Part shown: one piece after another, positions 20,926 through 44,747 of the stretch
Layout: the number at the start of each line of letters is the position of its first letter
How positions within the stretch are numbered: the stretch's first letter is position 1
Source: Candidatus Woesearchaeota archaeon
GTDB taxonomy: Archaea; Nanobdellota; Nanobdellia; Woesearchaeales; UBA11576
DNA: 64,000 nucleotides
NCBI GenBank assembly: GCA_018675335.1
Contig: JABGYH010000003.1
Span: 62,001-126,000 of the forward strand
Direction of reading: 5' to 3'
Notes under the pieces: model-generated
Told to the model about the DNA's origin: nothing
Databases searched by the model: none
Seen by the model: the letters and a program-made list of their open reading frames with translations, nothing else
Translations under genes and position numbers: made by a program

Positions 20926-21756
20926 ATGGGTAGAGAAGATCAAATTTACAAAGTATTAGGATTTGGCGGCAGAGGAGATGCTAGAGTTCGCGATGATAAC
21001 GGTAGAACAATTTTTGTTAGTAATTGTCCAAACGGACTTGAAGAAGGAGCTGAAATTGGAATAAGAGGACTTCGCGATGGACGCGGAAGTTCTGACTTTG
21101 CAAATTATGCGCATCCAGATAGAATACAATCAACTCAAACTCAAAGACCTGCTCAAAGTCCACTTCGAAGAGCAGAACCTAAACATCACTATGTTTTACA
21201 CTTAGGCCCAAGTTCAAGACTTGACAGTTGCGCAATTGCCGTGTGTAAACCAGAAATTCTAGAAATGAATGCATATGACGCACTAGTACACTTAGTAGAA
21301 AGGGCTGGACAAAAAAACTTGTTTACCACTTCAACAGATAGACGAATTGCAAAAGGATTGCAAACAACATATGAAAGAGCACAAGGCGATGATGCTTCAG
21401 AAGAATTAGTATGGACACTTAATGGAGAAGCAATAACTTCAAAGACTACCAAAAAATTAAGCGATTATATGCGTATGGATGAAGGTAAATATCGAGCGAA
21501 AGCTACCATGACTGAAAGCGATTCAACTCCAACTTCAGGAACTGTTGAAGAAAAAGTTGCAACACCTCAAGTTGCGAATCCAACAAGAAGAGTTGTTAGT
21601 TCTGCGCCAAGCAAACCTGCAAGTGCAAAACCTACACCTAAAAAAGCCCCTGCGTATAGTCAACCATCAAGAACTTCTCACACAATTCATAGAGCACGAG
21701 CTACTATGAGTCGACGAGGAAGTCCAGGACATGAAACCTTAGATGATTTAATTTAA
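20926..21756 (+). CDS. TRAM-domain protein with a long C-terminal extension
   Basis: 276 residues. Residues about 8-62 fit a TRAM RNA-binding domain: GFGGRGDARV, then RTIFVSNC, then EEGAEIGIRGLRDGR, as in the G-x-G-D-G-x-A...V-F-V...G-x-x-v-x-v-x-I order. Archaeal TRAM proteins normally consist of the domain alone. Here it is followed by a globular part (about 90-185) not recognised and a Pro/Ser/Thr/Arg-rich tail ending HETLDDLI. It is the first gene of operon A and stands 77 bases before the triple-repeat gene. A role as an RNA-binding or substrate-recognition part of the island is inferred from position only. Confidence 0.65.
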   Translation: MGREDQIYKVLGFGGRGDARVRDDNGRTIFVSNCPNGLEEGAEIGIRGLRDGRGSSDFANYAHPDRIQSTQTQRPAQSPLRRAEPKHHYVLHLGPSSRLDSCAIAVCKPEILEMNAYDALVHLVERAGQKNLFTTSTDRRIAKGLQTTYERAQGDDASEELVWTLNGEAITSKTTKKLSDYMRMDEGKYRAKATMTESDSTPTSGTVEEKVATPQVANPTRRVVSSAPSKPASAKPTPKKAPAYSQPSRTSHTIHRARATMSRRGSPGHETLDDLI

Positions 21757-21832
21757 ACGCAATAACAGAAAAAATAACAAAAAAATAAAGAAAAATTTAG
21801 ACGCTGCAAAAGAGGTGGGTTGCAGAAACTAA

Positions 21833-23305
21833 ATGATACAAACCTTTTTAGATTATATTCAAGCGAAGAAATCATCAGTAGTATTTTTTGATGATCAAGC
21901 CTATTTTATAGGTGATCATACAACAGAAGAACCAACAGGAGATCACATAGTTCAAAACTGTGGGAATTCTCAAGTTTATTATCCATTAAGTTCTGGAGTA
22001 TTAGTATCAGACTTAGAATTATCCGACCGACTTTCTAATCGCGCAGAAATAAATGAAACAAAAAATAGATTCATAACAGATAACTTAGAACGAAGTGATG
22101 ACACTCTAGTTTCGTTTATGAATAAATACACACTTCTAAAATTTGTTGTTGATGAAATATTTCCCCTATTAGTTAATGCTTCAGCAGAAGATCGACTCGC
22201 AAGTATTTTAGACGAAGACGTTGAAGTAAAAACCGGAGAGCAAATTATTAAAGAAATTCTTGGCGAACAAGGAGAAACCACAACAAAAGATCTTGAATTA
22301 AAAACACATATAGTAGATCAATTAGAAAAACAACTTAAAAGTGCACACCTACGAAAAGCTCCGTTTGTTTCTGATTGGGATGAAACATCTCAGCGAGAAT
22401 ATGACGGAACAACATCAGTTCTTTCAATGGTGCTAAGAGATACTCCTTGTTTAATAATTGATAATCATGCATTCGTACTTACTGAAGAAACTGCAACTGA
22501 TTCAGAACTTGTTGCAAAAATTAACGGAAAATCATTAGGACTACACACTCAAGGAGGTAAAGTTTCTCACCTAAATGACGTATACCAAACATACATAACA
22601 CATTTAGTAAAAGCTGACGCAACTTCTGAATTAAAATCAAAAATGGATTCTGCTCAAGATAATATTCTCAAAGATGTAGACTACATGCCAATAATGGATT
22701 TAGAACAATTCAGTTATCAAAATTTAGTATTTTTTAGAAATGGAAATATATATTACATTGGAAGACGAATACCAAAATTTGCAAGACAAACAACTTCTGA
22801 TGAAAACATGTTTGTTGTAAAAGAACATGATCCCGATGGATTTGCAGGAGACTTATGTATTGGACTTAGAGTTGTTAATGGAGAAATACAATATCTTCCT
22901 CCAGGCAGTTATGATAATGGAGTAATTTATCGAGGACCAATAAAAAGTGACGCACCATTTTCTATGCACATATCCCTAGTAGATCCTCAAATGCAAAGAG
23001 TATATGGACACTTAACTACAATTTGCCATATTGGAGGATATCCAAGTTTTCCAATGACTGCAGAAGGATTTGTTGCATTCTTAGATTATTCAGAAGGAAA
23101 TTTCTTAGATAGTCACCGTCAAGAATTTGTAGATTATCATTTAGATAGAATGCATAGATCACGTGGACTTGAAAAAGGCACAGTTTTGACAAAAGATGAA
23201 GCAGTAAAACAAGGATACATGCTTAGAAATATTCACAAAATAGGTGCTGAAGACTCTGCTCGAGAAGAACAAATTGCAAGACAGACTGATGGAGATGATT
23301 ATTAA
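21833..23305 (+). CDS. Triple-repeat protein with a possible E2-like cysteine (operon A copy)
   Basis: 490 residues, paralogous to the products of 36039-37499 and 37530-38960. Three beta-rich repeats of the form h-h-h-x-x-G-x-x-Y-h-x...Y are spread through the protein (about 16-56, 204-238 and 296-347), linked by helical segments (for example YTLLKFVVDEIF). The C-terminal third has GLRVVNGEI, then HLTTICHIGG with C398. The paralogues have RICLDQ and GWCMGQ at the same place, resembling the G-x-x-C-L-D active site of E2 ubiquitin-conjugating folds. A tail of about 20 residues after NIHKIG is absent from the paralogues. A clear GGTGG ribosome binding site precedes the ATG. The stop is 1 base before the JAMM gene. 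The E2 relation is a hypothesis. Confidence 0.6.
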   Translation: MIQTFLDYIQAKKSSVVFFDDQAYFIGDHTTEEPTGDHIVQNCGNSQVYYPLSSGVLVSDLELSDRLSNRAEINETKNRFITDNLERSDDTLVSFMNKYTLLKFVVDEIFPLLVNASAEDRLASILDEDVEVKTGEQIIKEILGEQGETTTKDLELKTHIVDQLEKQLKSAHLRKAPFVSDWDETSQREYDGTTSVLSMVLRDTPCLIIDNHAFVLTEETATDSELVAKINGKSLGLHTQGGKVSHLNDVYQTYITHLVKADATSELKSKMDSAQDNILKDVDYMPIMDLEQFSYQNLVFFRNGNIYYIGRRIPKFARQTTSDENMFVVKEHDPDGFAGDLCIGLRVVNGEIQYLPPGSYDNGVIYRGPIKSDAPFSMHISLVDPQMQRVYGHLTTICHIGGYPSFPMTAEGFVAFLDYSEGNFLDSHRQEFVDYHLDRMHRSRGLEKGTVLTKDEAVKQGYMLRNIHKIGAEDSAREEQIARQTDGDDY

Positions 23306-23306
23306 A

Positions 23307-24764
23307 ATGACTCGCGAGTTTGAAGAAAGAGAAGCGGCAGTCCTTTTAGCAGCACTCCAAGAAGAAACTCCCCTAGATCATTTACTCCCATTTAATCAAG
23401 TTGGAATTACTACAAGCGCACATAAAAAAAATATTGCAATTGGAACTGTTCTCGATTCACTAAGCGCAGGCAAATATGAATGGTATGGTTATAGTTTAGC
23501 TGAAAGAATGCGACCACAATTAATAGTTGATACATTACTACAACAAGGACAATTTGTTACAGGTGTTGATGTAAATTTCAAACCAAATGATGCAGCAAAA
23601 TCACTTGACGAATTAGTAAGAATAAATCGAGAAGAAGAACGAGAAGGAACTCCTCACGAACTAATGGTTGTTGGAATTGTTCACAGACACCCATTTACAA
23701 GTGGAATTCCTAGACGATCAGAAAAAGATGTTATTAATCTTTCAAATTTTATACACTGGTTAGGAACCACCAACATGGACCTAAGCAAATACAAAGATAT
23801 GTTTGAAGAACTTGGACCCATAACTCCGAAAATTGAAGGATTTGAATTAGTTCTTTATCCAGAATCCGCAGATTATCTAACATTAAGATATGATTTAGGA
23901 GATTTACATGCGGAAGCAGATTTTATTATGGGACTTCGAGAAGAAGGAGTTTTTAATGAAACTAACTTAGCACGAATAGGTGGCTTTCGAGAATTATTAC
24001 GACGACATTTAGACTTTAGAGGAGTAATATGCGCAGAACAAGGATTATATGTTGCAACCGCAACAAGTTTAATTTATAATGAACTGGGAGATCAAACTTT
24101 TGGAGAAATTCAATTGCTAGCTCGAGGTTCCATAAATAACGAATACGAAAAACCATTCGAAGTTCCTGTTGAAGTTATTACTGATTTATCTGCACAAGGA
24201 AGATACTGGGATGAAAATACTCTGGAACATGAAATAAATCAAAAAGTATACTGGTCAACCAAAAGAAGAATCGCAGTTTCTGGAAGCAAACCAAGAATCA
24301 TTGTACCTGGAAAAAAAGCATTAGTCGGAGTTGAGAATCCAGATTTAACAAACTGGCCAAGCAATATCCCAATAGTTGGAGTTCAAAAAGATGATTCTCT
24401 TGATGAAGAAGATATAACTATTGGATTTTATCATGCAGCAGGAGCATACCTTGCAAATTATAAACTTCAAGATGTAAAATATTCTACTTACTTATTTATG
24501 ATTCTTCAGACTGTAATGGACAAAGATGTAAAAAATTTAAGAGATGCAGTAAAAAAGATAGGATCATTATTTGAAGATCCAATAAATTTACAAGGAGAAA
24601 TTCCCAGACCATATTTACGAGGAGAAGATCAAGAATATATGATCATGAAACTTGAATGCGATTTAACAACTCATGACACAGACTTTATGATAAAATCACA
24701 AAAAGGAACTTGCGAATTTAATTTATCATTAGAACAGTATGTAGGTCAAGTTTTAGCAAAATAA
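23307..24764 (+). CDS. JAMM/MPN+ metalloprotease-like protein
   Basis: 485 residues from the ATG at 23307, chosen because it starts 1 base after the upstream stop; a start at 23244 would overlap that gene by 62 bases. JAMM enzymes cut isopeptide or C-terminal bonds of ubiquitin-like proteins using a zinc ion. The expected residues are present: E58 in KYEWYGYSLAE, H126 and H128 in VGIVHRHPF, S138 and D141 in RRSEKDV. Between HxH and S there are nine residues, not the usual seven, so the loop is two longer. The 340 residues after residue 145 are not recognised. The gene neighbours an E1-like gene and an E2-like gene, the classical grouping of prokaryotic ubiquitin-like systems. Confidence 0.72.
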   Translation: MTREFEEREAAVLLAALQEETPLDHLLPFNQVGITTSAHKKNIAIGTVLDSLSAGKYEWYGYSLAERMRPQLIVDTLLQQGQFVTGVDVNFKPNDAAKSLDELVRINREEEREGTPHELMVVGIVHRHPFTSGIPRRSEKDVINLSNFIHWLGTTNMDLSKYKDMFEELGPITPKIEGFELVLYPESADYLTLRYDLGDLHAEADFIMGLREEGVFNETNLARIGGFRELLRRHLDFRGVICAEQGLYVATATSLIYNELGDQTFGEIQLLARGSINNEYEKPFEVPVEVITDLSAQGRYWDENTLEHEINQKVYWSTKRRIAVSGSKPRIIVPGKKALVGVENPDLTNWPSNIPIVGVQKDDSLDEEDITIGFYHAAGAYLANYKLQDVKYSTYLFMILQTVMDKDVKNLRDAVKKIGSLFEDPINLQGEIPRPYLRGEDQEYMIMKLECDLTTHDTDFMIKSQKGTCEFNLSLEQYVGQVLAK

Positions 24765-24871
24765 CAAATATAAAACAAAATAATAAAAATAGAAAACAAA
24801 AATAGAAAACAAAAAAAAAAATAAAACAAAAATTCAAAAAAATCAAATTCAAAAAATATAAAATAAAAAAA

Positions 24872-26404
24872 ATGGCAAATAATCAAGAAGCGAGATTGGA
24901 CAGATTCCTTAGAGGAGTTGGACCTGAGGGATTTAAGAAATTAGAAAACTCAGTAGTTACAGTTGTCATGGATAGTCCAGTTGGAATGTGGTATGCATTT
25001 CCTTTTGCAGCTTCAGGCATCCCATTAAGAATGATTAGCACAGCTCAAATTGAACCTCCTCCTGAAGATTTTGAAGGATTAAAAGAAAATTTTATTGGAA
25101 TTGATTTAGCCCAGGGAAATCTAGCTCATGCATACGCAAAAGCATTTAGAAAATTTAATGGAGATAACATACCCGCAAATAAAATTGCAAGTTTAAATGC
25201 AAATTTAGGATTTAATGGAACGGATATGTTACTTTTTGCATCATCAGTGGTAATTGATTGCACTACAAGTTTACAATCAAAAAAAATTGCACTTAAATAC
25301 GCACGAGAAACAAATTCTACGCTCATTAGTTCTGCAGTAGTACCAGGATATTCCAAAGCAGCACTTTGGCATCCCGAACTCGATGGTGCTTCTATTGAAC
25401 AAGCATTAATGCCTGAAATGAGTTTACTAGAACAACAAACACTAGAAATGTTTGGAATTGAAACTTCAAACGGACTTCAACTCAGCCCAAATGCACAAGT
25501 AACAAGAGAATTAATCAGCATGGTCATGGGAGGACTTGTTGCAGAAGAAGCAGTAAGAGCAATTCTTACAGACATCCCCGACAAAAGTGAAGAATTATTA
25601 CAAACCCCACTACATTACAAATTTGGACATAATTCCGAAATATTTCACCCACTATATTCAGGAGATGAATTATTTGTTTTAGAATGTGAAGATTTTTTAG
25701 AAAAAGCAGCACTATTATACGGCGCAGGATCAATTGGAAATATGACTGGATATTCCCTTGTTAAAATGGGATTTGGAAGAATTGCAAATCTAGATTCAGA
25801 TATTATCGAATCAACAAATATTCATCGAACAATATTATTTTATGGAATGGAAGGAAAAAGAAAAACCCATTCTCTTGCAAAAAGACTTTCAGCAATATCC
25901 GGTGGAGCTACAAAAACAAAAGCCATCATGAAAAAATTAAAAGAAGAAGGATGGGATCCTGAAGAACCATATGATGTTTATGTCGACGGATTTGATAACT
26001 TTGCAGCAAGAATGCTCGTAAGTCAACAAGGATTAAAAGATGATGTCGTTGTTGCAAGTTTATCAGGAAGATTTGATGGATTTAATGCAGATCTTTATGT
26101 TCCCAATCACACAATTTGTTTAGATTGCAATATAGGAATTAATGAAAAAGGTGAATCTGATCGAGCAAAACAAAGACAAAGTTGTGGACGGGAAATTACA
26201 CCTCAAAATACTTGGATGAATCAAAGTGTTGGAGCATTAGGTGCATTACAAATTGCAAGTGCACTATATCCAGGAAAATATGGCACACCATTTAATGGAA
26301 TGATATTTCATGATCGACATCAAAAATCAAGATTGTTTGCAAATGAAAAAGAAGGAACTTGCCAACAAGGACATAATGGAGAAATAACTCACTATGACAG
26401 ATGA
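24872..26404 (+). CDS. E1-like (ThiF/UBA) activating enzyme, fused double Rossmann, operon A
   Basis: 510 residues. E1 enzymes adenylate the C-terminal carboxylate of a modifier. The N-terminal half (about 20-235) has the fold but no GxGxxG; the C-terminal half has all the marks: GAGSIG (284-289), D308-x-D310, N316 and R319 in ESTNIHRTILF, FDNFAAR (374-380), zinc pair CLDC (416-419), and C438 in RQSCG before QSVGALGALQIASAL, as in MoeB/UBA. This pairs an inactive and an active adenylation half in one chain, the layout of eukaryotic UBA1, whereas archaeal UbaA/MoeB-type enzymes are single-domain homodimers. The stop overlaps the next gene by 11 bases. Confidence 0.85.
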   Translation: MANNQEARLDRFLRGVGPEGFKKLENSVVTVVMDSPVGMWYAFPFAASGIPLRMISTAQIEPPPEDFEGLKENFIGIDLAQGNLAHAYAKAFRKFNGDNIPANKIASLNANLGFNGTDMLLFASSVVIDCTTSLQSKKIALKYARETNSTLISSAVVPGYSKAALWHPELDGASIEQALMPEMSLLEQQTLEMFGIETSNGLQLSPNAQVTRELISMVMGGLVAEEAVRAILTDIPDKSEELLQTPLHYKFGHNSEIFHPLYSGDELFVLECEDFLEKAALLYGAGSIGNMTGYSLVKMGFGRIANLDSDIIESTNIHRTILFYGMEGKRKTHSLAKRLSAISGGATKTKAIMKKLKEEGWDPEEPYDVYVDGFDNFAARMLVSQQGLKDDVVVASLSGRFDGFNADLYVPNHTICLDCNIGINEKGESDRAKQRQSCGREITPQNTWMNQSVGALGALQIASALYPGKYGTPFNGMIFHDRHQKSRLFANEKEGTCQQGHNGEITHYDR

Positions 26405-27458
26405 ATCTATTGAACCCGAAATGCAAGCACCTGCAGATTTAGAAGACTCCGATGAAGCAGAATTACTAGACATACTTGCAGAACTTCGAGGAGGAACAGA
26501 GAAAAGAGAATTGTTCCAAGTAGAATTAGAACCAGAACCATTTGATCCAATAAAAAAAATAGCTGCAATTTTAACCAGAACTCGACTTGTTAAAGATGAA
26601 CTTAAAATAAGAACTGATGGCTATGCACAATTAAACATACTAAGAGGTCATAATTTTAAAAAACCATTAAGCATGGCAGCAATCCAACTCATGGAATATG
26701 TAGGTGTTGGAATTGATCAAATTGGAATTGAAAAAAAATGGGTTGGAAAAAAAGAAAGATGGTTTGAAAACATCGTTCACTCAGAAGGAAGACGCAGATA
26801 TCTCGCAGTATTAACTGCCGCAGAAAATGATGTTGATTGCGTAACTCGAATGGCACTTATGAGAATAAGAAATGCCTACTTAGTTAATTTCAAACATAGT
26901 TATGAATTAATTCCAGGAGAACATAGAGAAACCCGAAATGGCGAACAACCAAATTATGAAGATCAAAGATTTGATTCCATAGTTGACTTAAGTCTTCCAG
27001 AAATTGCACACATGATTGCAATGCAAATATATTCAAAAAAAATAATTGAAGCAAATAGATATAATTTTACAATTCCTACCGAAGGAAAAATAGGAATTCC
27101 AACAAAATTTCCACCAAATAGAATAACTGTAAAATCCGAAGATTATCAAAAACCAGGATATGGTAAACAAGATGTAAATCTTTCCACAACTATGGCTGCT
27201 AACTTACTTTATGCTCAAATAACTGGTTTAGAAGATCGTTTGCAAACAACAAAAAAAACATTTGATTTACTGCTCATGATTGGAGCAAATTATATTGCAA
27301 GCCAAATAGTAGATCCAGAATTAAGACGAGAAACTGTTGAAATCATGAATGGACCTAAAAATTTACGAAGAGCATTTTATACAACCGTTATGAATTACCA
27401 ATTAGGCTTGATGACTGCGCCTCCTGAAATAGTAATTTCACCCCCAACAAAAGATTAG
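26394..27458 (+). CDS. Unrecognised helical protein following the E1 gene (operon A)
   Basis: 354 residues, not recognised. It starts inside the last codons of the E1 gene (11-base overlap), so translation is coupled and a physical partnership is plausible. The N-terminus is acidic and disordered, then LLDILAELRGG. The body is mostly helical. The corresponding slot in operon B, directly after its E1 gene, holds a 306-residue acidic-start protein (39676-40596) with LLDMMRG near its N-terminus. They may be distant counterparts, but the similarity is weak. Confidence 0.6.
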   Translation: MTDESIEPEMQAPADLEDSDEAELLDILAELRGGTEKRELFQVELEPEPFDPIKKIAAILTRTRLVKDELKIRTDGYAQLNILRGHNFKKPLSMAAIQLMEYVGVGIDQIGIEKKWVGKKERWFENIVHSEGRRRYLAVLTAAENDVDCVTRMALMRIRNAYLVNFKHSYELIPGEHRETRNGEQPNYEDQRFDSIVDLSLPEIAHMIAMQIYSKKIIEANRYNFTIPTEGKIGIPTKFPPNRITVKSEDYQKPGYGKQDVNLSTTMAANLLYAQITGLEDRLQTTKKTFDLLLMIGANYIASQIVDPELRRETVEIMNGPKNLRRAFYTTVMNYQLGLMTAPPEIVISPPTKD

Positions 27459-27497
27459 AGTTAAAAAAAAATTAAAAAATTAAAAAAAATTAAAAAA

Positions 27498-28727
27498 ATG
27501 ACACACCCAAGAATTGAAACATTAGTAATGCAAGCAGAAATGCAAGCAGAACATAGAAAAACAGACATCGACTTAGGTCATTATACTGAAGAAATGTTTC
27601 CAAGTGTATTTTCTTATTATTTGTGGGAAGAATTAATAACACAAACAGAACGATTATTTGATTTACCTAATTTTTCAATTAATGTTTCAAATAAACATGA
27701 ACGCATATCTAGAATCTCTTTTTGGGACTGGGACAGAATAACTCGAGAGAGTGAAAAAGATTTCGTAGCAGGAAAACCTGTCAAAGTTGATGATGCAATT
27801 CCTGAAGATAAATTTTTAGATTATGCTCTTGCAGTTTTAACAATGCCTCTACCACGAACAAAAGTTGATTTAAATACCCCTGCAGAACAAGGAGATTTAG
27901 TTTTATTATTATCACACCCTGAGCTTACAATATCTTCAAGTAGTTTTGATTTTGATAATAAGGATTCTGATTTAAGAAAAGTATTTGGCAACTTAGGAGT
28001 TTTAGCAACAAAGAAAAAAAGATGGGCTCATCTTGACGATGATCTTCAAGAATATACTTGTCAAGTTACCTTACCTCATAACGTAGACTCTGCAAAACTA
28101 AAACTTCAATATTTAGCACCCGTAACTCCAAAACAATCTGAAGGAACAAAAATAAGAATTGGAGATAAAGTAAAATTTAAAGGACACACATTCAAAACAC
28201 CTCGTCCAGACCCAGACTCATTTCAAGGAGAATTTAATGATGAATTTGATTCTGATTATGAAGACTTAACCGAAGCATATGAAGAAAAAGCAGGAGTTGG
28301 AAGAAAAAGAGGGGGGCACAGAAGACCACCAATTCACAGATCCCAACCACAAATTCAAACAACACCTTCAGAACTTGAAAAAGGACATCACTATTTAGTT
28401 ATTGGTTCAGATTCAAAAGGCGCATATGTGCAAGCAAGTACACGAATAGTATACGTTGAATTAGAACGACTAGAAAAACAACCAGGAATATATGAACCTA
28501 ATGCTGATGAAAATATAAAACTTAGAGAAATTGTTAAAGATTGTGTTCGAACTGTCCTTCACCAAACAGGGCTTATGAGAAAATATGAAACACTACGACA
28601 AGTAATGATTCGTGAAGCAAAAAAAGGTGCAAGCCTACAAGATATAAATCAAGTTATCAAAAAAGCAGGAGCAAATCCTGAAGAAGTCATTAAATGCTGC
28701 GAGGTTTTAACATATGTTAATCGATAA
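27498..28727 (+). CDS. Unrecognised protein of operon A
   Basis: 409 residues, not recognised. Predominantly mixed alpha/beta, with a Lys/Arg/His/Pro-rich break around residues 260-295 (AGVGRKRGGHRRPP) separating an N-terminal part from a C-terminal helical part ending KCCEVLTYVNR. A short beta stretch HHYLVIGSDSKGAYVQ (about 297-312) resembles the small beta units of the triple-repeat proteins but is not convincing. The start follows a TTAAAAAA-repeat spacer without a ribosome binding site. The gene overlaps the next one by 14 bases. Confidence 0.6.
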   Translation: MTHPRIETLVMQAEMQAEHRKTDIDLGHYTEEMFPSVFSYYLWEELITQTERLFDLPNFSINVSNKHERISRISFWDWDRITRESEKDFVAGKPVKVDDAIPEDKFLDYALAVLTMPLPRTKVDLNTPAEQGDLVLLLSHPELTISSSSFDFDNKDSDLRKVFGNLGVLATKKKRWAHLDDDLQEYTCQVTLPHNVDSAKLKLQYLAPVTPKQSEGTKIRIGDKVKFKGHTFKTPRPDPDSFQGEFNDEFDSDYEDLTEAYEEKAGVGRKRGGHRRPPIHRSQPQIQTTPSELEKGHHYLVIGSDSKGAYVQASTRIVYVELERLEKQPGIYEPNADENIKLREIVKDCVRTVLHQTGLMRKYETLRQVMIREAKKGASLQDINQVIKKAGANPEEVIKCCEVLTYVNR

Positions 28728-29646
28728 ACTATCTCACGTAACTGCAGTATTTGAAAAACAAGTCCCATATGTTAGTTATAACTCACTTCCTGACAAAAGC
28801 ATACGAAATAAATTACTCGCATTTTATTTAGTTGAAAATTTACCCGGGAACCAAACAAGATCAGTTCTTTACTCAGCACCATCAGAATCAGGAATTCACA
28901 AAGTTGCAATTATTGATGAACTATATAGATTAACAAAAAAAGGAGTTCATGAACTTCACCTTAAAGAACCTGCTTCAAGAAAATCAAGATGGGAGTACCG
29001 ATTTAAAAAAAAGCTAAAAGAAAAAAAAGAAAAAAAGAAAAAACCAAAAATAACTGATGAATTAGAAGGAGAATCTGATGAAGATTTTGGATTTGCCACA
29101 TTATGGCAAAATAAAAAACGACATCGAACAGGAACAATTTATAGAGGTTCATCCTACGCAAAAACACTACTAGTTTCAGGACTTGCAATTTATAGAGCAA
29201 TGATGGATGAAATGTTACTTTCCCCAATTTTAAGTGGAGAACCAATTAGCACACTTGAAGATGTTTGTTTAACAGAAGATCAAAAAACCGCAGAAGTTAC
29301 ACACTTATTTTCCCACCCATTATTCAAAGATCTAGATCAAGATGCAAATCCCGCGCATGCTGCAGCGTGTTATTTATTATTATTTGCTCAAAAAGATTCT
29401 CAAAAAGATGCAACTGCACAAGCAGAATTTGAAGAATATGAAACAAGAATAACTGCTTCTAAAACAAGCACCGAATTACGACAATTACTCGCATTTAAAA
29501 CATATCATGAAAGAAATGGAACTGAAAAATTAAGAGAACAAAATTTAGAGTTATTAAGAGATTCAAATATTTCAATGGAACAAGCACTCTTACAAGCAAT
29601 AATTAATTGGAACCAAGATATAGTTCTTAGATTGTCACGCAGATGA
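28714..29646 (+). CDS. Unrecognised protein, last gene of operon A
   Basis: 310 residues, not recognised. Starts within the end of the previous gene (14-base overlap). A long lysine/glutamate stretch (about residues 92-115) looks like a charged helix or disordered linker between an N-terminal mixed domain and a C-terminal helical domain. It ends RLSRR. No membrane segment or catalytic motif is visible. After its stop, 83 bases separate it from the convergent end of operon B. Confidence 0.58.
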   Translation: MLIDKLSHVTAVFEKQVPYVSYNSLPDKSIRNKLLAFYLVENLPGNQTRSVLYSAPSESGIHKVAIIDELYRLTKKGVHELHLKEPASRKSRWEYRFKKKLKEKKEKKKKPKITDELEGESDEDFGFATLWQNKKRHRTGTIYRGSSYAKTLLVSGLAIYRAMMDEMLLSPILSGEPISTLEDVCLTEDQKTAEVTHLFSHPLFKDLDQDANPAHAAACYLLLFAQKDSQKDATAQAEFEEYETRITASKTSTELRQLLAFKTYHERNGTEKLREQNLELLRDSNISMEQALLQAIINWNQDIVLRLSRR

Positions 29647-29729
29647 ATAAAACAGATAATAAATACTAAAAACAACACACCAACTAAGAAATAAATAAAA
29701 ATAATGGTGATTTTAATTTTATATTAATT

Positions 29730-30851
29730 CTAACGAAAACTAGTTCCTGTTGCTAACAACATATTACTTGCAGGACTTGATTCTAACTCAGCACGTGGAG
29801 ATTCTGCAAGCTGTTTGGCATAGCAAGCTGTTAAAGATTTAACCAAAGAATCTAAATACTCAATTGGATCATCATCAGTAGTTGCTTTTATTATTGCAAC
29901 TTCAATTACTTCAATTAAATCTGAATCAGATAATAATTCGTTAAGAGAAAATAAACTTTTGGTAAATAATTCTGAATCATACCTTCCCCCACCAGATTCA
30001 GATTTTATTACTTCTCCAAATAACCTAACCGCATAAGGAAAAGTTTTATCCAACCCACTTAATTGTTTTAACCAACTAATTGAATCAGAATACATAAAAT
30101 TAAAATAATCAGATCTTCCAGGAAATCTTTGAATATCTGCTAAATATAAATAAGCAGGAATAATTTCTGGACTTTTTGATAATTCTTTAACTAAAGAAGG
30201 AATTCCAATCATAAATTCTCCACCAGTATGACCATTATTAATATTTCCAAGTAACTCTGCAAAATCACCACAATAAGGTTTGAGAGTAGGATTTTCAAAA
30301 GCTTTAAAAAATTCTTCAACCTGATAACTTTTATAGGGATAATCTCCATCACCTGCATGAAGATTAATTCTTTCTGTTTGAGCTTTCGCTAAACCAAGAA
30401 CAACTTGCCTGGGTTTCTCATGCCACGTAGAAAAATAAGAACCTAACACTCGTGCAATCATATGCTTTCTATTAGCACCTTGACAAACAATGGGCTCACA
30501 CATAGTCTCAATAATGTCTAAATAAAATGAACTATAACCTTCAAAATATTGTACAAACTCAAGCGAATTTGGTTTAGCATGTTTACGAGCAAGCTTTAAT
30601 GCATTTGAAACAATATAAGTTTTATAAAAATTCCATTTCGGAAGTGAACCTGAATCTAAACTTTCATCAGTGGCGTTTTCCCACTCGGCATATCTTCTTT
30701 GTTTTTTGGAAGCCCCAACCGTAAACCAGTCAATTCTAGTTTTATAATCTTTTTCTTCAGTAGCTCTTTTTAGTGCAACATATCTATCATGATGCTCATC
30801 AACAATTGCTTCAATTCTGCTTCCTAAGTCTAAAGAAAACCCCCAAACCAT
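29730..30851 (-). CDS. Unrecognised helical protein, last gene of operon B
   Basis: 373 residues, not recognised. All-helical character throughout. It contains several Cys and His residues (CEPIVCQGANRKH near residue 117) but no zinc motif. It follows the 571-residue helical repeat protein by 130 bases, the largest spacer in the downstream part of the operon, so it may have its own promoter. Its C-terminus (LLATGTSFR) does not carry either shared tail found in the neighbours. Confidence 0.55.
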   Translation of the reverse strand: MVWGFSLDLGSRIEAIVDEHHDRYVALKRATEEKDYKTRIDWFTVGASKKQRRYAEWENATDESLDSGSLPKWNFYKTYIVSNALKLARKHAKPNSLEFVQYFEGYSSFYLDIIETMCEPIVCQGANRKHMIARVLGSYFSTWHEKPRQVVLGLAKAQTERINLHAGDGDYPYKSYQVEEFFKAFENPTLKPYCGDFAELLGNINNGHTGGEFMIGIPSLVKELSKSPEIIPAYLYLADIQRFPGRSDYFNFMYSDSISWLKQLSGLDKTFPYAVRLFGEVIKSESGGGRYDSELFTKSLFSLNELLSDSDLIEVIEVAIIKATTDDDPIEYLDSLVKSLTACYAKQLAESPRAELESSPASNMLLATGTSFR

Positions 30852-32697: not shown

Positions 32698-32763
32698 TCT
32701 CAACACCTTTGAAATAATTTGAAAAAAATTAAAATAAATTAAAATAAATTGAATTAAATTGAA

Positions 32764-35001: not shown

Positions 35002-35017
35002 ATTTCTCGCCCGTAAC

Positions 35018-35911: not shown

Positions 35912-36038
35912 TTTTCATCACTTTATTTTTCTTTTTTATTTCTTCATTGATTCTTTTTTGAGTAGTTTGTTATTTTTATTTGATTATTTTTTGATTTTTT
36001 TTTGATAAAAATTTTAATTAAATTTGATTAAAAAATGT

Positions 36039-37499: not shown

Positions 37500-37529
37500 T
37501 ATAATCACCAATTAAAATTTTAAATTCAA

Positions 37530-38960
37530 TCATTTTTTCGCCATTAAATTTGTTGGATATAATCCCAACCCATCCATTTCTTGTTTTGTTATTTCTTTAT
37601 AATCGCAATTTCTTGGAATGTGAAAATGATCCCACGGAGTGTCTTTATGACCAAAACCAGTCATTAAAATCCTTTTTGCATCTTCTAAAAACGTAATTGC
37701 TTTTTCAAGATCAGTCCTAAATGTTTTATCAAAATTATATTGCCCCATACACCATCCATGATCAAACTGATCTCTCGTTTCAGACGCATTAATATGACAA
37801 GGACGTTTAATTTGAATTCTGCCCTTGCTCGAATATATTCGAACACCAACTTTTGATGGTTGAAAAAGGAAATATTTATTTCGCATTTCATCACGAACTA
37901 CAAATTGAGGAATATCATAAGTTAAGTACCATTGATCTGCATACTTTTTTACCCCAACTCCACTAGGTAATTTATATTCGCCATTTTCAAAAATTTCTTT
38001 AGCTAACTTTCTCTTGTGTAGCCCTTTGAGCTTTTTGAATTTGTCAACACCTGATTTTATTGCTTCAATTTTTAGAATCTCAGAAAGTCTATCTTGGTAG
38101 CGCCCTTCAAATTCTTCAATCGAACAATGATGAACAAAAGTATACCTAATCCCTCCAATCACTAACCCAGGATTTGAATATTTTTTATCTTGTAATATAG
38201 TATATACCTGCCCATTCAAAAAAATAGCCTTTTCAAAACCTAGCAAATCACTTAATGTATCACTTAATTCTTCGGTTTCTGCTTTAATGCCTGGTTTTCT
38301 TTGTTTAACCCCTAATAATTCATCAAAACGATCTTGCTGCGTAAATCCAACTTCAGACTTAACACCCCTAATTAATTGATCAATAATTTCATCAATAATT
38401 TCTGAATCTTCACAAGTTTCAAGTTCACCAATTTGGACTTCACCTTTTGCACCAACTAACTCACCAATATGTTCATCTGCAACTCCAGTGTAATGTTTGA
38501 AAACTTGATTGACAACAAAATCCAACACAAGATTGTCTTGAATTTTTTCAGTTAAATCTTTAACAACATCAGTACGCGCAACTAAACTTTCAACATACGA
38601 ATCACACCAAGATTTAATTTGATCTTGATCTAAAACTCGGTGTAACTTCAAAAGCCCCGGAACAGTTTCTTCTTGTTTTAATCCATAAGTTCTATTCCCC
38701 ACAAATAAACAATCAGTTCCAGGTTTTGCATCAACCACTGGCACGTAAGTTTTTTTTTTATCAACAACTAAACACCCCCTCTTTGAAAGAGTGTAAAATA
38801 ATGAAGGAGGAAAATTAAATTCGTTACCTGCCAATTTAACTTTTTTAGGAGCTTTCGCTAATTTAACTTCTGTCTCATCAACATTTTTTTTCTGATCGCA
38901 ATCTTGTGATTCTTTAACTGGAATTGCCATAAAAAAACGATCCAAATTATCTTCTGACAT
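37530..38960 (-). CDS. Triple-repeat protein with E2-like cysteine (operon B, upstream copy)
   Basis: 476 residues. The same three-repeat layout as the next gene (GCLVVDKKKTYVPVV, KAIFLNGQVYTIL and GVGVKKYADQWYLTY) and the same linker helix (LDFVVNQVFKHYTG). The cysteine region reads FDHGWCMGQYN, aligned with the RICLDQ site of its neighbour. It ends GLYPTNLMAKK. Only 18 bases separate the stop of this gene from the neighbour's start, so it is the tandem duplicate. Modifier-like or E2-like function is inferred from the cluster. Confidence 0.62.
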   Translation of the reverse strand: MSEDNLDRFFMAIPVKESQDCDQKKNVDETEVKLAKAPKKVKLAGNEFNFPPSLFYTLSKRGCLVVDKKKTYVPVVDAKPGTDCLFVGNRTYGLKQEETVPGLLKLHRVLDQDQIKSWCDSYVESLVARTDVVKDLTEKIQDNLVLDFVVNQVFKHYTGVADEHIGELVGAKGEVQIGELETCEDSEIIDEIIDQLIRGVKSEVGFTQQDRFDELLGVKQRKPGIKAETEELSDTLSDLLGFEKAIFLNGQVYTILQDKKYSNPGLVIGGIRYTFVHHCSIEEFEGRYQDRLSEILKIEAIKSGVDKFKKLKGLHKRKLAKEIFENGEYKLPSGVGVKKYADQWYLTYDIPQFVVRDEMRNKYFLFQPSKVGVRIYSSKGRIQIKRPCHINASETRDQFDHGWCMGQYNFDKTFRTDLEKAITFLEDAKRILMTGFGHKDTPWDHFHIPRNCDYKEITKQEMDGLGLYPTNLMAKK

Positions 38961-39004
38961 TTTTTACACCATTTAATTATCTAACATAATACCAAGTTCA
39001 TAAT

Positions 39005-39583
39005 TTACAAAAACGAATCTTGCCTAAATTCCGCTCTGCGAGCAATACTTGTCACAATTAATTCTAAATCAATATTCGCACTTTGTTTTATTTTATCAAA
39101 TTTGGTTTTAAATTTAGCTCTTTTTTTTTCTACACGACGAGGTTTATGATATTTTTTAGCTTCATAATCGATTGATTTTTCAACTAGTTCAACCAGTTCA
39201 CCATATAAGTCAACACCATTTTGCCTATTTTGGTTAAGTTCATGATACAAAACTAACACTGTTGAAACTTGTTCGCCTGTTGCTTCAACAGTATAATTCA
39301 CACATTGTTCAAATTCATATTGGCCCTGTAATTCTTTAACAAAATCTTGTATATGAGAAGATTTTTCATCCTCTGTTTTTAATTTTTGATAAGAATCATC
39401 ACGAACTAAATTCCATCTAACAATACATCCCTCATAACCTCCAGGAGTTTTCACTGCAATTTTTAGTGGACATGCACAACCAGCATAAATAATAGAATCT
39501 ACATCGCCAAATCTAGCATATTTAGCTTTTTTTTCAGGACGAACATGAATTAATTCCCTGTTTGTTACTTTTCCCCAAATCAT
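39005..39583 (-). CDS. Small protein ending in the shared R-x-D-S-F-L tail
   Basis: About 192 residues from the ATG at 39583, because GGTGG lies 5 bases before it. Not recognised as a known family. The N-terminal 130 residues are mixed alpha/beta with four cysteines (YAGCACPLK, GGYEGCIV, FEQCVNYT); the rest is a basic helical region. The last residues RRAEFRQDSFL match the tails of both membrane proteins of the operon (RRRDTFL and RRATTRRDTYL). The tail similarity is the strongest clue that the three are handled by one machine. Confidence 0.6.
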   Translation of the reverse strand: MIWGKVTNRELIHVRPEKKAKYARFGDVDSIIYAGCACPLKIAVKTPGGYEGCIVRWNLVRDDSYQKLKTEDEKSSHIQDFVKELQGQYEFEQCVNYTVEATGEQVSTVLVLYHELNQNRQNGVDLYGELVELVEKSIDYEAKKYHKPRRVEKKRAKFKTKFDKIKQSANIDLELIVTSIARRAEFRQDSFL

Positions 39584-39675
39584 TTTCTCCACCGTTGATT
39601 AAATTTAATTCTTAAATTTTAATTTCATTAACAAAAAAAACTAAATTTAAAAAAATAAAAAAAAAAAAATTAAAA

Positions 39676-40596
39676 CTATCTTTTCTTATCACTCGCACCT
39701 GCTTTTGCACTTGCTTTATCTTTCTTGTATGGATTTACCATTTCAGGAAGATCTGGTCTTTTTCCAAGTTCAATTTGGTGCAATGCAATTTTATACTGCG
39801 CCATAGTTTTATGAAGCTCTTTGTATTTTTCAGCAGGAAGTCTATACTTCAATAAAGTTTCACAACCATCCAATACATGTTCTAATCTTTGAATGTCAGG
39901 GAAAACATCTTCGCCACCGACCATACGATGATACAATGCAGAGATGTCATCATTCATTTTACCGTATGTTTTTCCTACAAGAGTAACATATAAAATTTCA
40001 TCTTGTTCGTCTTCTTTGATTTCTCTTTCTTTTGCAGTTCTTAACACATAATGTTTAATATCCCCAATAGGAATATCCCTATTCGAAACCATGTCTTCTA
40101 AATGTGCACGGTAAGATTCATTACCAGTTTCAGACAGAAAAATATCAACAAACATACAAGCACGTAAATCCTCGACGTCTTTACTTTGTTCAACTCTAGG
40201 AATAATAACTTCATTTCTCAGAGTCATCAAAAAACTATCAAGCACCATCAAATACATAGGATTAATACTAGATAATTCACCTGGATCCTCAGTTCTTAAC
40301 GAACCAGTACCTTGATTTGTCACTATAATTCCTGCAAGTCCTTTTACTCGCCCATCATATGATTGCCCACCCTCTTTAGTTGCACCCATATAAATTGTAG
40401 GTTCCAATTCTTCAATACGAGTATCGGCATCTCCTCTCATCATATCTAATAAATCAACTCCTTGTTCAGGATCCACTTTAGGAATTGGTGCATCCGCAGC
40501 TTGCGTTTTAACACTAGCTAAAACATCTGCTGGATCAACAGTTCCAGCACCAACACCGTCTTTTAGTTTTTTAGTTCCATCATTTTTTTTAGTCAT
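39676..40596 (-). CDS. Unrecognised helical protein downstream of the operon B E1 gene
   Basis: 306 residues, not recognised. Disordered, charged ends (Lys-rich N-terminus, KASAKAGASDKKR C-terminus) flank a helical core of about 220 residues. It begins 17 bases after the E1 stop with an AGGGTGATTT ribosome binding site, the same slot used in operon A by the 26394 gene. A helper or scaffold for the E1 is possible, but there is no direct evidence. Confidence 0.58.
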   Translation of the reverse strand: MTKKNDGTKKLKDGVGAGTVDPADVLASVKTQAADAPIPKVDPEQGVDLLDMMRGDADTRIEELEPTIYMGATKEGGQSYDGRVKGLAGIIVTNQGTGSLRTEDPGELSSINPMYLMVLDSFLMTLRNEVIIPRVEQSKDVEDLRACMFVDIFLSETGNESYRAHLEDMVSNRDIPIGDIKHYVLRTAKEREIKEDEQDEILYVTLVGKTYGKMNDDISALYHRMVGGEDVFPDIQRLEHVLDGCETLLKYRLPAEKYKELHKTMAQYKIALHQIELGKRPDLPEMVNPYKKDKASAKAGASDKKR

Positions 40597-40612
40597 TTTA
40601 AATCACCCTCAC

Positions 40613-42103
40613 TTAACTAAATAATTTAATTTTTTTCTGATACCATTTTTGACCGCCTTTTTTACTTGCGTCAGGTTCATATCTTAACTCACGAGTTTCA
40701 TGGCAATTACAAGCAACGTCGCTAGCCAAAGCATACATAACTGTTTCAGATCTCGCATCATAAATTTCAAGACCCCCTTCAACATCACCATAAAATTCAG
40801 GCGCAAGTATTTTCAAAATCTTACCTGCCACCATACTACCAATAACCATGTTACTCATTACAACACTAGATTCATGTGCAAGCAAACAACCTGCACGCTG
40901 ATCATGCTCATCAGCCTTTTCATCAATTTTTATTGCACATTCTAAACACTGTGTTTTTTGCGGCACGTATGCTACTGCTTGACCATTTTTGAATGAAGTA
41001 CCACCGTCAACATACGGAATTGATGTTACAATCGCAAATTCATTTAACACACTACGAACACGCTCGGAATCAACTCCCCCTGCAATTACGTCGTATGCTC
41101 TTTTTGCAATATATTCTGGATCAACTAAAGTCATGCCTGCCTTTCTATCTTCAGGCGAAAGTTCATGACCAATTTTACCAAAAATATATTTTAAAACAAC
41201 TTCAGGATTAATTTTACCTACAACTTTAAGAAAACCATCTCCCTTAAAATCTCCGACGGAATCGTAATAAAACCATTGCCTATTAAGATTAGTTTCTTCT
41301 ACATCATCATAATCAACACCGTGAATTGCACCTACATTTTCTAAAGCAAGACCTAATGTGATGTAAACACCCAATGCACCAAGACCTGCTTCCAAAACTT
41401 TTTTACTTTTTAATGCTTTAATTCTTGAAGCATCATCTAAGTCTGCAAGTTTTTCATCTTTAATGAATGCGTAATCCACTCTCGCAGGAACAACATCTTT
41501 TTCGTCAAGTTGAAAACAAAGTTTTCTATAAATTTCACAAGCAATTCCACCCATTACCCCACTAGTAATTGCTCCTTGATTTTGTCCTTTAAAATCCAAT
41601 TGCAAATATTTTGGATCGAGAGGATCATCAGTTTCTGGATTAAAAACTAAAATTTCTCCACGAGCATGATTAGTTGAAGTTAATATTAATTTCATTCCAT
41701 GTTCCACTGCATATTCTAAAGCTACTTTTTTTGAACGAGGATCATTAGTTGCATCTAATAAAACTCCTCGCTTTGGCAAATATGCTCCTGATTGTTCATG
41801 AACTAATTGAGTGTGAACTCCAAATACATCAATATCAGTATTTATTGCACTAACTATTTCTTCTAATGCTCTAGCTCCACTTCTTCCTTCTTTTGCATCT
41901 AAGTGCAGAAATTGTCCTTTAACTTTTTTGTCAACACGAGAATTGTCAACAACAAATAATTCCCCCACACCTAATCCTGCAGCCCCCACTAAAACATACT
42001 GAGCAAGAGTATCACCGCCAATAACCGTCAAAGTATTATTGTCAATTAATTCTTGCTTCCAATTTTCAATTTGAGTTTGCCTTGCGGCTCTATTTCCAGC
42101 CAT
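40613..42103 (-). CDS. E1-like (ThiF/UBA) activating enzyme, fused double Rossmann, operon B
   Basis: About 496 residues from the ATG at 42103, preceded by GGTGATT. The N-terminal half (1-215) has a Rossmann unit with an eroded nucleotide loop (GGDTLAQYVLVGAAGLGVGEL). The C-terminal half is complete: GLGALG (240-245), D264 and D266 in GVDYDD, N272 and R275 in TNLNRQWF, a Cys pair CLEC (386-389) and C406 in RAGC, plus CNC at 465-467 near the end. The layout mirrors the operon A enzyme (24872) but the sequences are only distantly alike, so the two may activate different substrates. Ten bases separate it from the upstream gene. Confidence 0.87.
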   Translation of the reverse strand: MAGNRAARQTQIENWKQELIDNNTLTVIGGDTLAQYVLVGAAGLGVGELFVVDNSRVDKKVKGQFLHLDAKEGRSGARALEEIVSAINTDIDVFGVHTQLVHEQSGAYLPKRGVLLDATNDPRSKKVALEYAVEHGMKLILTSTNHARGEILVFNPETDDPLDPKYLQLDFKGQNQGAITSGVMGGIACEIYRKLCFQLDEKDVVPARVDYAFIKDEKLADLDDASRIKALKSKKVLEAGLGALGVYITLGLALENVGAIHGVDYDDVEETNLNRQWFYYDSVGDFKGDGFLKVVGKINPEVVLKYIFGKIGHELSPEDRKAGMTLVDPEYIAKRAYDVIAGGVDSERVRSVLNEFAIVTSIPYVDGGTSFKNGQAVAYVPQKTQCLECAIKIDEKADEHDQRAGCLLAHESSVVMSNMVIGSMVAGKILKILAPEFYGDVEGGLEIYDARSETVMYALASDVACNCHETRELRYEPDASKKGGQKWYQKKIKLFS

Positions 42104-42113
42104 AATAATCACC

Positions 42114-43436
42114 CTATAATTTTACATCCGATTCAATTGGATCTTCTGATTCTTTCGCAGCGCCCAATTTTGGTTCTTTAACATTTAATGCTTCTTCAAC
42201 GCCAGTTGGTTCTTCAACTCCTTTTGGTAAGTAAGTTTCCCCCGGAATAATTTCTTCCGGACGAATAATTGTTACCCTAATTGGATTTGGATTCACTGGT
42301 CCCTCCATGTTTTGCACTAACTCATCAACAGATATTGGTTGTTCATCTGAACTTATTACACCTAATCCTGCGTTTTTACCATCCATTAAATCAGTAGTTT
42401 GTTGAATTAAAGGAAGTGCTGATTGAGTCGGTAGTTCTTCAGATCGTAACTCTGCACCAGATTCAATAATTGTACCAACAGGTTTTGATTCACCAACAGG
42501 TTCATCACCACTTACGATTTTAACTGAACCTGCAGGGGTTGGATCGATGGATCTTTGATCAACTGGTTTTTGAACATAAACTCCAGACTGAGTTTTAACC
42601 CATCCACCACTTGGAGTGTGCGTAGTACCACAACCCAAACCAACCCACACACAACGATCAAGATCTACTTCTCGTTTTGCTTTTTTTACAAGTTCTAGTT
42701 GAGACTTTGAAACAGCATAAGTTTTATCATCTGTAAACCCTGCAAACCCAGTTGGATTAATAAGATACGCATACTCCATAGGAATAAATCCTTCTTTTGC
42801 CAGAGTTGTTAATTTACTAAAAGTTCCATAAAAATCAATACCCAAATCAACAGAAAAACCTAATGGCCTAACTTTATCTGCAAATAAATTAGGAACACCC
42901 ATAACTAGATGTTGATAAACTAAATCTAACTGATTTTGAACCTCACGCATTACTTGATAATATAATTTTCTTGTAACACTAAAATCAGACGTTACATGTT
43001 CTAATTCATCACCAATTAAAAGCTCAATATTTCTCGCACAAGAATATACCGGATCACTTTTTAACAACGCCCTACTACGAAAATTTAAACTCGCTAATTC
43101 TTTATCTGAAATAGCAGGATCTTTTCTTTTTTCAATATCCCTCATAAATGGAATCATACCCAAATAGTAATTAACTGCAGCTTCAATTGGAATTTCCGTA
43201 TCGAACAAAGGCGTCGAAACTTTAGCAGTCCCCTCCAACCAAATATAAGGACCATCAGAATCATCCATCAAAAAAGCAACTCCTGATTTATCATGATGCG
43301 GATTAACTGGATTTTTAACAATACGAGTAATTTGTACTTCAGAACACTTAACTTCAGGAAAATCTAGCCCTAACTGTTTTTGTACTAACCAAACTTTGGT
43401 TCTATCCCACAGATTAGATATTATGCCCTTTCCCAA
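42114..43436 (-). CDS. Unrecognised protein upstream of the operon B E1 gene
   Basis: About 440 residues if translation starts at TTG 43436, placed 7 bases after GGTGG. An alternative TTG at 43463 would put the ribosome binding site inside the gene. The first 330 residues form a mixed fold with a Gly-rich stretch WVGLGCGTTHTPSGGW (about 255-270); the C-terminal 130 residues are Pro/Glu/Thr-rich and disordered. It has none of the JAMM residues. Its position directly before the E1 gene matches a substrate- or E1-binding role, but this is conjecture. Confidence 0.5.
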   Translation of the reverse strand: MGKGIISNLWDRTKVWLVQKQLGLDFPEVKCSEVQITRIVKNPVNPHHDKSGVAFLMDDSDGPYIWLEGTAKVSTPLFDTEIPIEAAVNYYLGMIPFMRDIEKRKDPAISDKELASLNFRSRALLKSDPVYSCARNIELLIGDELEHVTSDFSVTRKLYYQVMREVQNQLDLVYQHLVMGVPNLFADKVRPLGFSVDLGIDFYGTFSKLTTLAKEGFIPMEYAYLINPTGFAGFTDDKTYAVSKSQLELVKKAKREVDLDRCVWVGLGCGTTHTPSGGWVKTQSGVYVQKPVDQRSIDPTPAGSVKIVSGDEPVGESKPVGTIIESGAELRSEELPTQSALPLIQQTTDLMDGKNAGLGVISSDEQPISVDELVQNMEGPVNPNPIRVTIIRPEEIIPGETYLPKGVEEPTGVEEALNVKEPKLGAAKESEDPIESDVKL

Positions 43437-43505
43437 TATTTCACCACCTAATAGAAATAACAAAAACTTTTATTTAATATATAAGAGTTTTGTTTTTGGG
43501 CGAGG

Positions 43506-43518
43506 TTATTTATAAATG
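43506..43518 (-). promoter_or_regulatory. TATA-like box of the 42114 gene
   Basis: On the minus strand the element reads CATTTATAAATAA, about 70 bases upstream of the TTG start. It lies in the 160-base gap between this gene and the PEP-synthase-like gene, so the rest of operon B probably has its own promoter. Confidence 0.45.
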
Positions 43519-43595
43519 AATTAAGAAATGTTAAACACCTACAAGGAGCATTTACTCACGATTTACTCATAATTTACTTATGACTTACTTAGAAT

Positions 43596-44747
43596 TTACT
43601 TATAATCAACTTTTTCTACAAGTGCCTCAGAACCAGTACAAACTACCCGCACTTTATCACCTTGTTGAAATGGCAGAATTTCATGCATATCACCAATAAT
43701 GCTCACATCTGCTAAATGCATAAGGCGATAATGTTTATGTCCCAAATATTGGGGAACTTCACGCGGAATAATTAAAGCTCGCAATCCAGAAAAATTATTA
43801 GTATAAGGAAACGTTCTCAAACCAATGCCACCATTATTATCAATAAGTTTAACACAAAAATCTCCATTTTGCTCAGCAAACCGGTCCTTTAACAAACTCT
43901 CCTCAACTTCACCTTTAAGCGCCCAACCATAAGTAAGTTCAATTCCTTCAGGCTTAGTCATGCCAAAAATATGCATCAAGGGCAAAGTTAAATTCTGTTT
44001 AAATCTCACATGAACATCAGATTTAGGTTCAATTTTATAATCTCTTGGCGATTCAAATTTTTTGAAAGTTCTAAATTGCAGAACATGAACATTACCACCC
44101 TTATCAACCACAAACTCCATTTGATGCGCGTACTCAGAATCTAAAACACCCGATTTTTCTGCTTTTTCAAACCACTCAATAACTTCTGGCTCCCATCCAT
44201 GTTTAGCCCAACTAGATATTACAGGTTTTTTACCACTAAATAACACAGGATCAATAAATCCCGTACGAGCATCCAAATAATTCATAACTACAGTTTCAGG
44301 ATAATGTGGATGTCTAATACAACTTCCCAAATAGTTCCAATCAATTTTTTTTTGAAACATAATAGTTATTCTATCATCAAGATTTCCTTGTTTATGAATT
44401 CTACAAAAGTCTTTTAAATCAGAATCTCCTCCAACTTGACGAATTCGTTCTGCCACCTCCACAAACGTATCTAAATCACGTATTGGAAGTCCATCACCAT
44501 TACCAATTGTTGGAAGAACATCAATCATAACCCCATTTCCAAAATCAACATAATCATCAGGATGACTCCCCCTGGCAACATTTAATTTACCAGGTATTAC
44601 ACCAATATCTTCTGCTGAATCGCCACTGCGTAAAGAAACAAATAAAGGAATAGGCATATCTTTTAGAACTCTCCTCATAGCAATTAAAACTCCTGCCTTA
44701 CCACCATGAGAATATATTAATTCTTTTGTTGCTGTTGGAAGTACCAT
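43596..44747 (-). CDS. PEP-synthase/ATP-grasp-like protein at the head of operon B
   Basis: About 383 residues from the ATG at 44747 (GAGTGATAATA just upstream). The middle matches the nucleotide-binding part of PEP-utilising enzymes: VSLRSGDSAEDIG (compare R-S-S-x-x-x-E-D), RITIMFQKKIDW, FIDPVLFSG and HQMEFVVDKGGNVHVLQFRTF, the last being the E-F-x-x-D...L-Q-x-R pattern of that ATP-grasp. The catalytic phosphohistidine and PEP domains are absent. It could be a kinase or ligase acting on the island's proteins, and ATP-grasp ligases do occur with E1-like genes elsewhere. The fold call is moderate and the activity unknown. Confidence 0.55.
   Translation of the reverse strand: MVLPTATKELIYSHGGKAGVLIAMRRVLKDMPIPLFVSLRSGDSAEDIGVIPGKLNVARGSHPDDYVDFGNGVMIDVLPTIGNGDGLPIRDLDTFVEVAERIRQVGGDSDLKDFCRIHKQGNLDDRITIMFQKKIDWNYLGSCIRHPHYPETVVMNYLDARTGFIDPVLFSGKKPVISSWAKHGWEPEVIEWFEKAEKSGVLDSEYAHQMEFVVDKGGNVHVLQFRTFKKFESPRDYKIEPKSDVHVRFKQNLTLPLMHIFGMTKPEGIELTYGWALKGEVEESLLKDRFAEQNGDFCVKLIDNNGGIGLRTFPYTNNFSGLRALIIPREVPQYLGHKHYRLMHLADVSIIGDMHEILPFQQGDKVRVVCTGSEALVEKVDYK

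Follow-up and report, generated by a model that had tools for sequence, protein, structure and literature searches.

The island at positions 20926-44747 of a 64,000 nucleotide stretch of a Candidatus Woesearchaeota archaeon genome (GenBank assembly GCA_018675335.1, contig JABGYH010000003.1, positions 62,001 to 126,000; hereafter the window) very probably encodes a complete ubiquitin-like conjugation system, belonging to a family that is absent from the databases searched. The host genome is archaeal and 1.7 Mb in size, and, among named organisms, the closest relatives of the system are found in Woesearchaeota and other DPANN archaea. The island is filled by two tail-to-tail gene runs, one on the forward strand (20926-29646) and one on the reverse strand (44747-29730), and a check of coordinates and open reading frames (ORFs) bore out both this two-operon layout and the genes placed there by the initial annotation. 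That annotation had read the set of E1-like, E2-like and JAMM proteins as ubiquitin-like conjugation machinery, an interpretation which is supported by conserved gene order, catalytic residues and a candidate ubiquitin-like modifier (Ubl). Only the two tandem ThiF proteins of the island are recognised by Pfam. The gene set may represent a little-known ancient way of marking proteins. Its core components are:

20926-21756, forward: candidate Ubl modifier precursor, directly upstream of the E2-like gene
21833-23305, forward: E2-like protein 1, predicted active cysteine C398
23307-24764, forward: JAMM/MPN+ metalloprotease with a long C-terminal extension
24872-26404, forward: E1 with an inactive followed by an active adenylation domain, predicted catalytic cysteine C438
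36039-37499, reverse: E2-like protein 3, predicted active cysteine C413, tandem paralogue of 37530-38960 (30% identity)
37530-38960, reverse: E2-like protein 2, predicted active cysteine C404
40613-42103, reverse: E1 of operon 2, of the same two-domain architecture, predicted catalytic cysteine C406, on a long separate branch of the E1 tree

Gene order and catalytic residues of the core components

The neighbourhood E2-JAMM-E1, whose conservation had been proposed as a check, recurs in many other genomes. A search with the JAMM protein of 371 genomes of the phylum gave matches in 10, including the host genome, and in most of these the JAMM gene is flanked by genes for an E2-like protein and a two-domain E1, while the E2 profile placed the family in 34 of the 371. 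When GTDB contigs were scanned with the E1 profile, 80 loci were returned, distributed over Woesearchaeota, Pacearchaeota, Nanoarchaeota, an Aenigmatarchaeota bin, Njordarchaeota, Desulfobacterota, Myxococcota and a small number of further bacteria. Among the 88 distinct E1 loci, 68 hold E2, JAMM and E1 genes together on one strand, with the order E2-JAMM-E1 in 48; as the loci were collected with profiles of these same proteins, the counts show that the genes co-occur in divergent genomes and do not give an unbiased frequency.

The initial annotation erred in stating that no obvious GG-terminated modifier is present, the gene directly upstream of E2 (20926-21756) being a candidate. A GG pair is found within the last 20 residues of 45 of the 68 non-redundant genes upstream of E2, as opposed to 42 of 673 other ORFs (p 8e-31, a value that overstates independence since related sequences are counted separately), and this feature recurs among very divergent copies. 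Most of the GG-bearing genes continue into a tail of a few residues, such as PQEGG-MFK and KQTGG-LEKCL, as would be expected by sequence of a Ubl precursor processed by a protease. The archaeal and Desulfobacterota Ubls match each other by profile (E 1e-7), the window Ubl matches the short archaeal Ubl group (E 3.6e-6) and is 40% identical to the gene at the same position in G253, and profile alignment of the Ubls with Asgard ubiquitin gave no match. The window protein is predicted to consist of an N-terminal OB-like barrel, a beta-grasp domain whose last strand is preceded by a long disordered insert, the sequence RRGSPG (G268) and the tail HETLDDLI. In its AlphaFold model the elements b-b-a-b-b-short helix-b, with one extra helix, precede RRGSPG in a ubiquitin-like order, and a Ubl fold for the gene upstream of E2 is supported by this prediction. 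The OB-like N-terminus, for which Foldseek returned PAN-type OB domains (E 0.1, probability 0.97), is missing in most relatives.

The three E2-like proteins had been described as triple-repeat paralogues with an E2-like cysteine. One invariant cysteine is indeed common to them (C398, C413 and C404), but the presumed triple repeat resolves into an N-terminal region of two homologous modules (hhalign probability 96, E 9e-10) and an unrelated C-terminal E2-like domain. The cysteine is present in 51/51 relatives and is preceded by a histidine in 47 and a proline in 49 of these, the C-terminal domain carrying the sequence Y.HPF...IC with HP upstream of the cysteine as in eukaryotic HPN E2s. Protein 1 aligns with its G253 counterpart at 39% identity, and protein 2 was modelled with AlphaFold (predicted local distance difference test 77) and included in the profile comparison with Asgard E2s. 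In the latter, the E2-like profile scored 27.5 (pair E 8e-4), compared to 19.3 for the best of 60 column shuffles and 14.8 for the reversed control, and the alignment pairs yPF..V, HP, the cysteine and the helix that follows it. Homology of the C-terminal domain to E2s is therefore supported at the sequence level, but not proven.

The JAMM protease-like protein predicted at 23307-24764 carries E58, the HxH pair at 126 and 128, S138 and D141, all of which are invariant in 12/12 relatives. Pfam Prok-JAB matches eight of the 12, with the window protein itself left unscored. The complete HxH-S-D metal motif is found in 84/84 JAMM sequences but in only 9/1072 control ORFs, and Rpn11/JAMM1 is matched in the PDB (1e-5). 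Six island proteins further carry a short sequence, L[DE]x[LIMFV][LIFVM], close to their N-terminus, as do 15/57 archaeal JAMM proteins compared with 44/1166 controls, the pattern having been defined post hoc after inspection; the window Ubl ends with LDDLI, and the motif is possibly a shared docking site.

Both E1-like enzymes are fused proteins as initially annotated, with Pfam ThiF matching two stretches in each (91 bits for 24872-26404 and 157 bits for 40613-42103). In the second ThiF domain G240, G242, D264, N272, K287 and D345 are conserved in 87/87 sequences, and R275 and the cysteine at the MoeB catalytic position (C406) in 86/87 each, while the GxGxxG loop of the first domain is lost, as in eukaryotic and BilD E1s. 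The best PDB matches of the E1 profile are UBA6, also the top match for 24872-26404, and UBA1 (7.5e-28), slightly ahead of MoeB, and the matches of a plasmid search are mainly annotated as MoeB. These enzymes could alternatively belong to a sulfur-carrier or cofactor pathway, in which a ThiF/MoeB-type E1 activates a ThiS/MoaD-like protein for sulfur transfer, given that the active domain also matches MoeB/ThiF models and that the MoeB-type cysteine pairs are kept in about half of the E1s. However, no NCBIfam ThiF/MoeB model scores above its cut-off for the E1s, the UbaA model remains far below (77 bits against 450), and such a pathway would need neither two fused domains, a JAMM protease and an E2-like protein nor a tail after GG. 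The cofactor enzymes with metabolic neighbours that the initial annotation had contemplated were likewise not found, no thiamine, molybdopterin or other cofactor genes being recognised in the island, and this is the least probable of the explanations considered, and a highly improbable one.

Proposed route of conjugation and its outcome

From the gene content and the conserved residues we infer a route in which the JAMM protease would cut the Ubl behind its C-terminal glycine (G268 in the window protein) and so remove the short tail, whereupon the active domain of the two-domain E1 would adenylate this glycine and load the Ubl onto its own cysteine (C438 or C406). The Ubl would subsequently be transferred to the E2-like cysteine (C398, C404 or C413) and attached to a target protein, from which the JAMM enzyme could take it off again. 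Tagged proteins would probably be handed to an AAA+ unfoldase and, in the host archaeon, to the 20S proteasome, the subunits of which are encoded in its genome. In 38 loci, which include some genomes fetched twice, the system has a gene for an AAA+ unfoldase nearby on the same strand, usually at less than 1 kb; these unfoldases are ClpX-like in Desulfobacterota and some archaea and proteasomal-ATPase-like in others. The simplest reading of these neighbourhoods is that tagging may deliver proteins to the unfoldase, with degradation a plausible, if tentative, outcome. More speculative is the wider view of an ancient ubiquitin-like degradation pathway common to DPANN archaea, Njordarchaeota and Desulfobacterota, comprising a tail-processed Ubl, a eukaryote-like two-domain E1, an HP-type E2 and a dedicated ClpX-like or proteasomal AAA+ protein, with four parallel systems in one archaeon.

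Several observations weigh against the reading of the island as a complete conjugation system. The window island itself does not contain an AAA+ gene, so that the hand-off to an unfoldase is drawn from relatives; an E3 was not found, and operon 2 lacks a recognised Ubl or, by hmmsearch, JAMM protein. The glycine of the window Ubl stands in the context SPG rather than GG, and a plain hidden Markov model (HMM) of the other Ubls misses this protein. The Ubl-family HMM has no sequence match in the PDB or Pfam, and among the best Foldseek matches of the Ubl model in the PDB, which fall on the OB-like domain, there is no ubiquitin. Similarly, the E2-family HMM has no sequence relative in the PDB or Pfam, and Foldseek of the E2-like model against the PDB and BFVD returned no E2. 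Of the folds anticipated for the triple-repeat proteins, that of E2 is favoured by the Asgard profile score but not by structural comparison, and since Foldseek does not recognise the model, the E2 fold is a supported yet unproven prediction.

The tagging of viral or defence proteins without the feeding of a protease, in a phage-defence system of the Bil/CBASS kind, would be a different function for the same enzymes. BilABCD, the nearest known architecture, is antiviral. Bil is also listed among immune pathways (PMC13373217), the spread of the present family is patchy, with several divergent copies in the host genome and none in its family relatives, and the E1s match the PADLOC E1-E2 models, at the common ThiF domain. 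PADLOC has, however, no model for the E2, the Ubl or the window JAMM protein, the genes that adjoin the island within the window have housekeeping roles (rpoB/rpoA, a nusA-like gene and a peroxiredoxin), and the recurrent partners of the system are AAA+ unfoldases. Viral contigs contain no relatives, for which reason a viral origin was rejected as well, and a defence function is considered unlikely.

Additional copies, accessory genes and surroundings

Two further systems are encoded on other contigs of the host genome, one (L029) with an E2-JAMM-E1 triad and a Ubl ending in DEGG plus a tail, and one (L030) with E2, E1 and JAMM genes. The four E1s of the host fall in separate branches, and thus represent parallel lineages rather than recent duplicates. 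The duplication across two operons described in the initial annotation is accordingly not a recent one; the two window E1s are 23% identical and located in different parts of the E1 tree, which rules out recent duplication of the operons. The Woesearchaeota bin SI073_bin58 contains at least three such systems (L090, L092 and L143), two of which are sister to L029 and L030 in the E1 tree. Two DPANN loci (L122 and L141) have a Desulfobacterota-type operon with a ClpX-like gene and E1s inside the bacterial clade, suggesting transfer of the system between domains. Three Njordarchaeota/Asgard genomes with the system (G371-G373; loci L100, L101 and L103), which may be incomplete, lack matches to the standard Pfam families for ubiquitin or E2, in contrast to most of the Asgard genomes searched.

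Operon 2 combines two E2-like paralogues with an E1 that is located elsewhere in the tree than that of operon 1. The genes which accompany the core components in the two operons are:

26394-27458, forward: conserved gene directly after E1, with a homologue at the same place in G253 and profile similarity (E 8.6e-6) to the genes that follow E1 in L021/L024
27498-28727, forward: operon 1 accessory protein, no relatives among the loci studied
28714-29646, forward: operon 1 accessory protein, no relatives among the loci studied
29730-30851, reverse: last gene of operon 2, no relatives among the loci studied
30982-34074, reverse: two paralogous soluble accessory proteins (30982-32697 and 32764-34074), found only here among the loci studied
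34096-35001, reverse: membrane-associated paralogue, C-terminus RRDTFL
35018-35911, reverse: membrane-associated paralogue, C-terminus RRDTYL
39005-39583, reverse: gene occupying the Ubl position in operon 2, ending RRAEFRQDSFL, unrecognisable as a Ubl and with no significant profile match
39676-40596, reverse: gene after the operon 2 E1, with a homologue downstream of E1 in the bacterial locus L106 (phmmer 1.7e-15)
42114-44747, reverse: two genes upstream of the operon 2 E1 (42114-43463 and 43596-44747), no Pfam match

Profile tests of the genes at 39005, 42114, 39676 and 43596 for an operon 2 Ubl or E2 that had escaped recognition gave no match. Distant relatives of 43596-44747 occur in seven other genomes of the phylum, and its earlier ATP-grasp-like label finds no support in Pfam. 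The membrane pair (34096 and 35018) and the helical pair (30982 and 32764) named in the initial annotation are true paralogues by sequence comparison. A C-terminal R-x-D-[ST]-[FY]-L sequence is common to the two membrane-associated proteins (RRDTFL and RRDTYL) and 39005-39583 (RQDSFL). The presence of two membrane-associated proteins in operon 2 and of the OB-like domain on the window Ubl would also be compatible with joining of the Ubl to a non-protein target, lipid or RNA, as Atg8 is joined to lipid. The membrane pair is, however, nearly private to the host genome and the Ubl is without an OB domain in most relatives, making such a target very unlikely.

Among the housekeeping genes of the window, RNA polymerase subunit B is seemingly split into two genes (12583-15981). 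Large proteins are encoded before the RNA polymerase genes (370-7377); the N-terminus of the first resembles a signal peptide, and two have a repeated domain in common.

Relation to known systems

A complete ubiquitin-style conjugation system would be placed by this family in DPANN archaea, hosts with very small genomes, and linked to a large family in sulfate-reducing bacteria. In the architecture of its E1 and in the order His-Pro/Cys of its E2 the family is eukaryote-like, and it therefore bears on the origin of the eukaryotic ubiquitin cascade. With AAA+ proteins as recurrent partners, it also offers a direct way to test for Ubl-directed unfolding or degradation outside eukaryotes. Pfam and NCBIfam hold no family for the E2 or the Ubl, and the literature searched contains no description of the system, with two possibly overlapping studies, Gong 2025 and Ye 2026 (cited in PMC13373217), falling outside that coverage. 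The initial proposal of a new archaeal family stands insofar as no counterpart was found in these databases and literature; the label archaeal is too narrow because Desulfobacterota and other bacteria have members of the family too, and the four-part logic of Ubl, E2, JAB and two-domain E1 is already known from bacterial Bil and Bub.

UbaA, of the SAMP system of haloarchaea, is a single-domain E1, and to our knowledge this system has no E2. Cap2 of CBASS type II is an E2-E1 fusion, and we know of no separate Ubl in that system. With SAMP/UbaA/HvJAMM1, a proteasome-linked set of Ubl, E1-like protein and JAMM protease (PMC4895103), the present family shares an archaeal Ubl, E1-like and JAMM protein, but differs in its E2-like protein and two-domain E1. 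E1, E2 and JAB activities are combined in one operon in CBASS type II Cap2/Cap3 (PMC10097602), as they are here, where all four parts are instead separate proteins. The Caldiarchaeum/Asgard system likewise comprises an archaeal Ubl, E1, E2 and Rpn11-like protease (PMC5654768, PMC6043591), from which the present family is distinguished by Ubls without a profile match to Asgard ubiquitin, an E1 of two fused ThiF domains and the absence of a visible RING E3.

The closest known systems are BilABCD, where a JAB protease pre-processes the Ubl and the E1 has an inactive and an active adenylation domain (PMC11354881), and the bacterial Bub operons of Ubl, E2, JAB and E1 (PMC13373217). Operon 1 and most relatives resemble these in encoding Ubl, E2, JAB and E1 as individual genes of a single operon, and in having an E1 with an inactive N-terminal and an active C-terminal adenylation domain and, in most relatives, a precursor tail after the C-terminal glycine of the Ubl, which is in SPG rather than GG context in the window. 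The family is set apart from Bil and Bub, as these are described, by the HP upstream of the E2 cysteine, where BilB has CEHH (Cys, then Glu, His, His), by the two-module N-terminal region of the E2, the often long JAMM protein and the AAA+ unfoldases recurring nearby, and by its occurrence in DPANN archaea, Njordarchaeota and Desulfobacterota, with four copies in the host genome.

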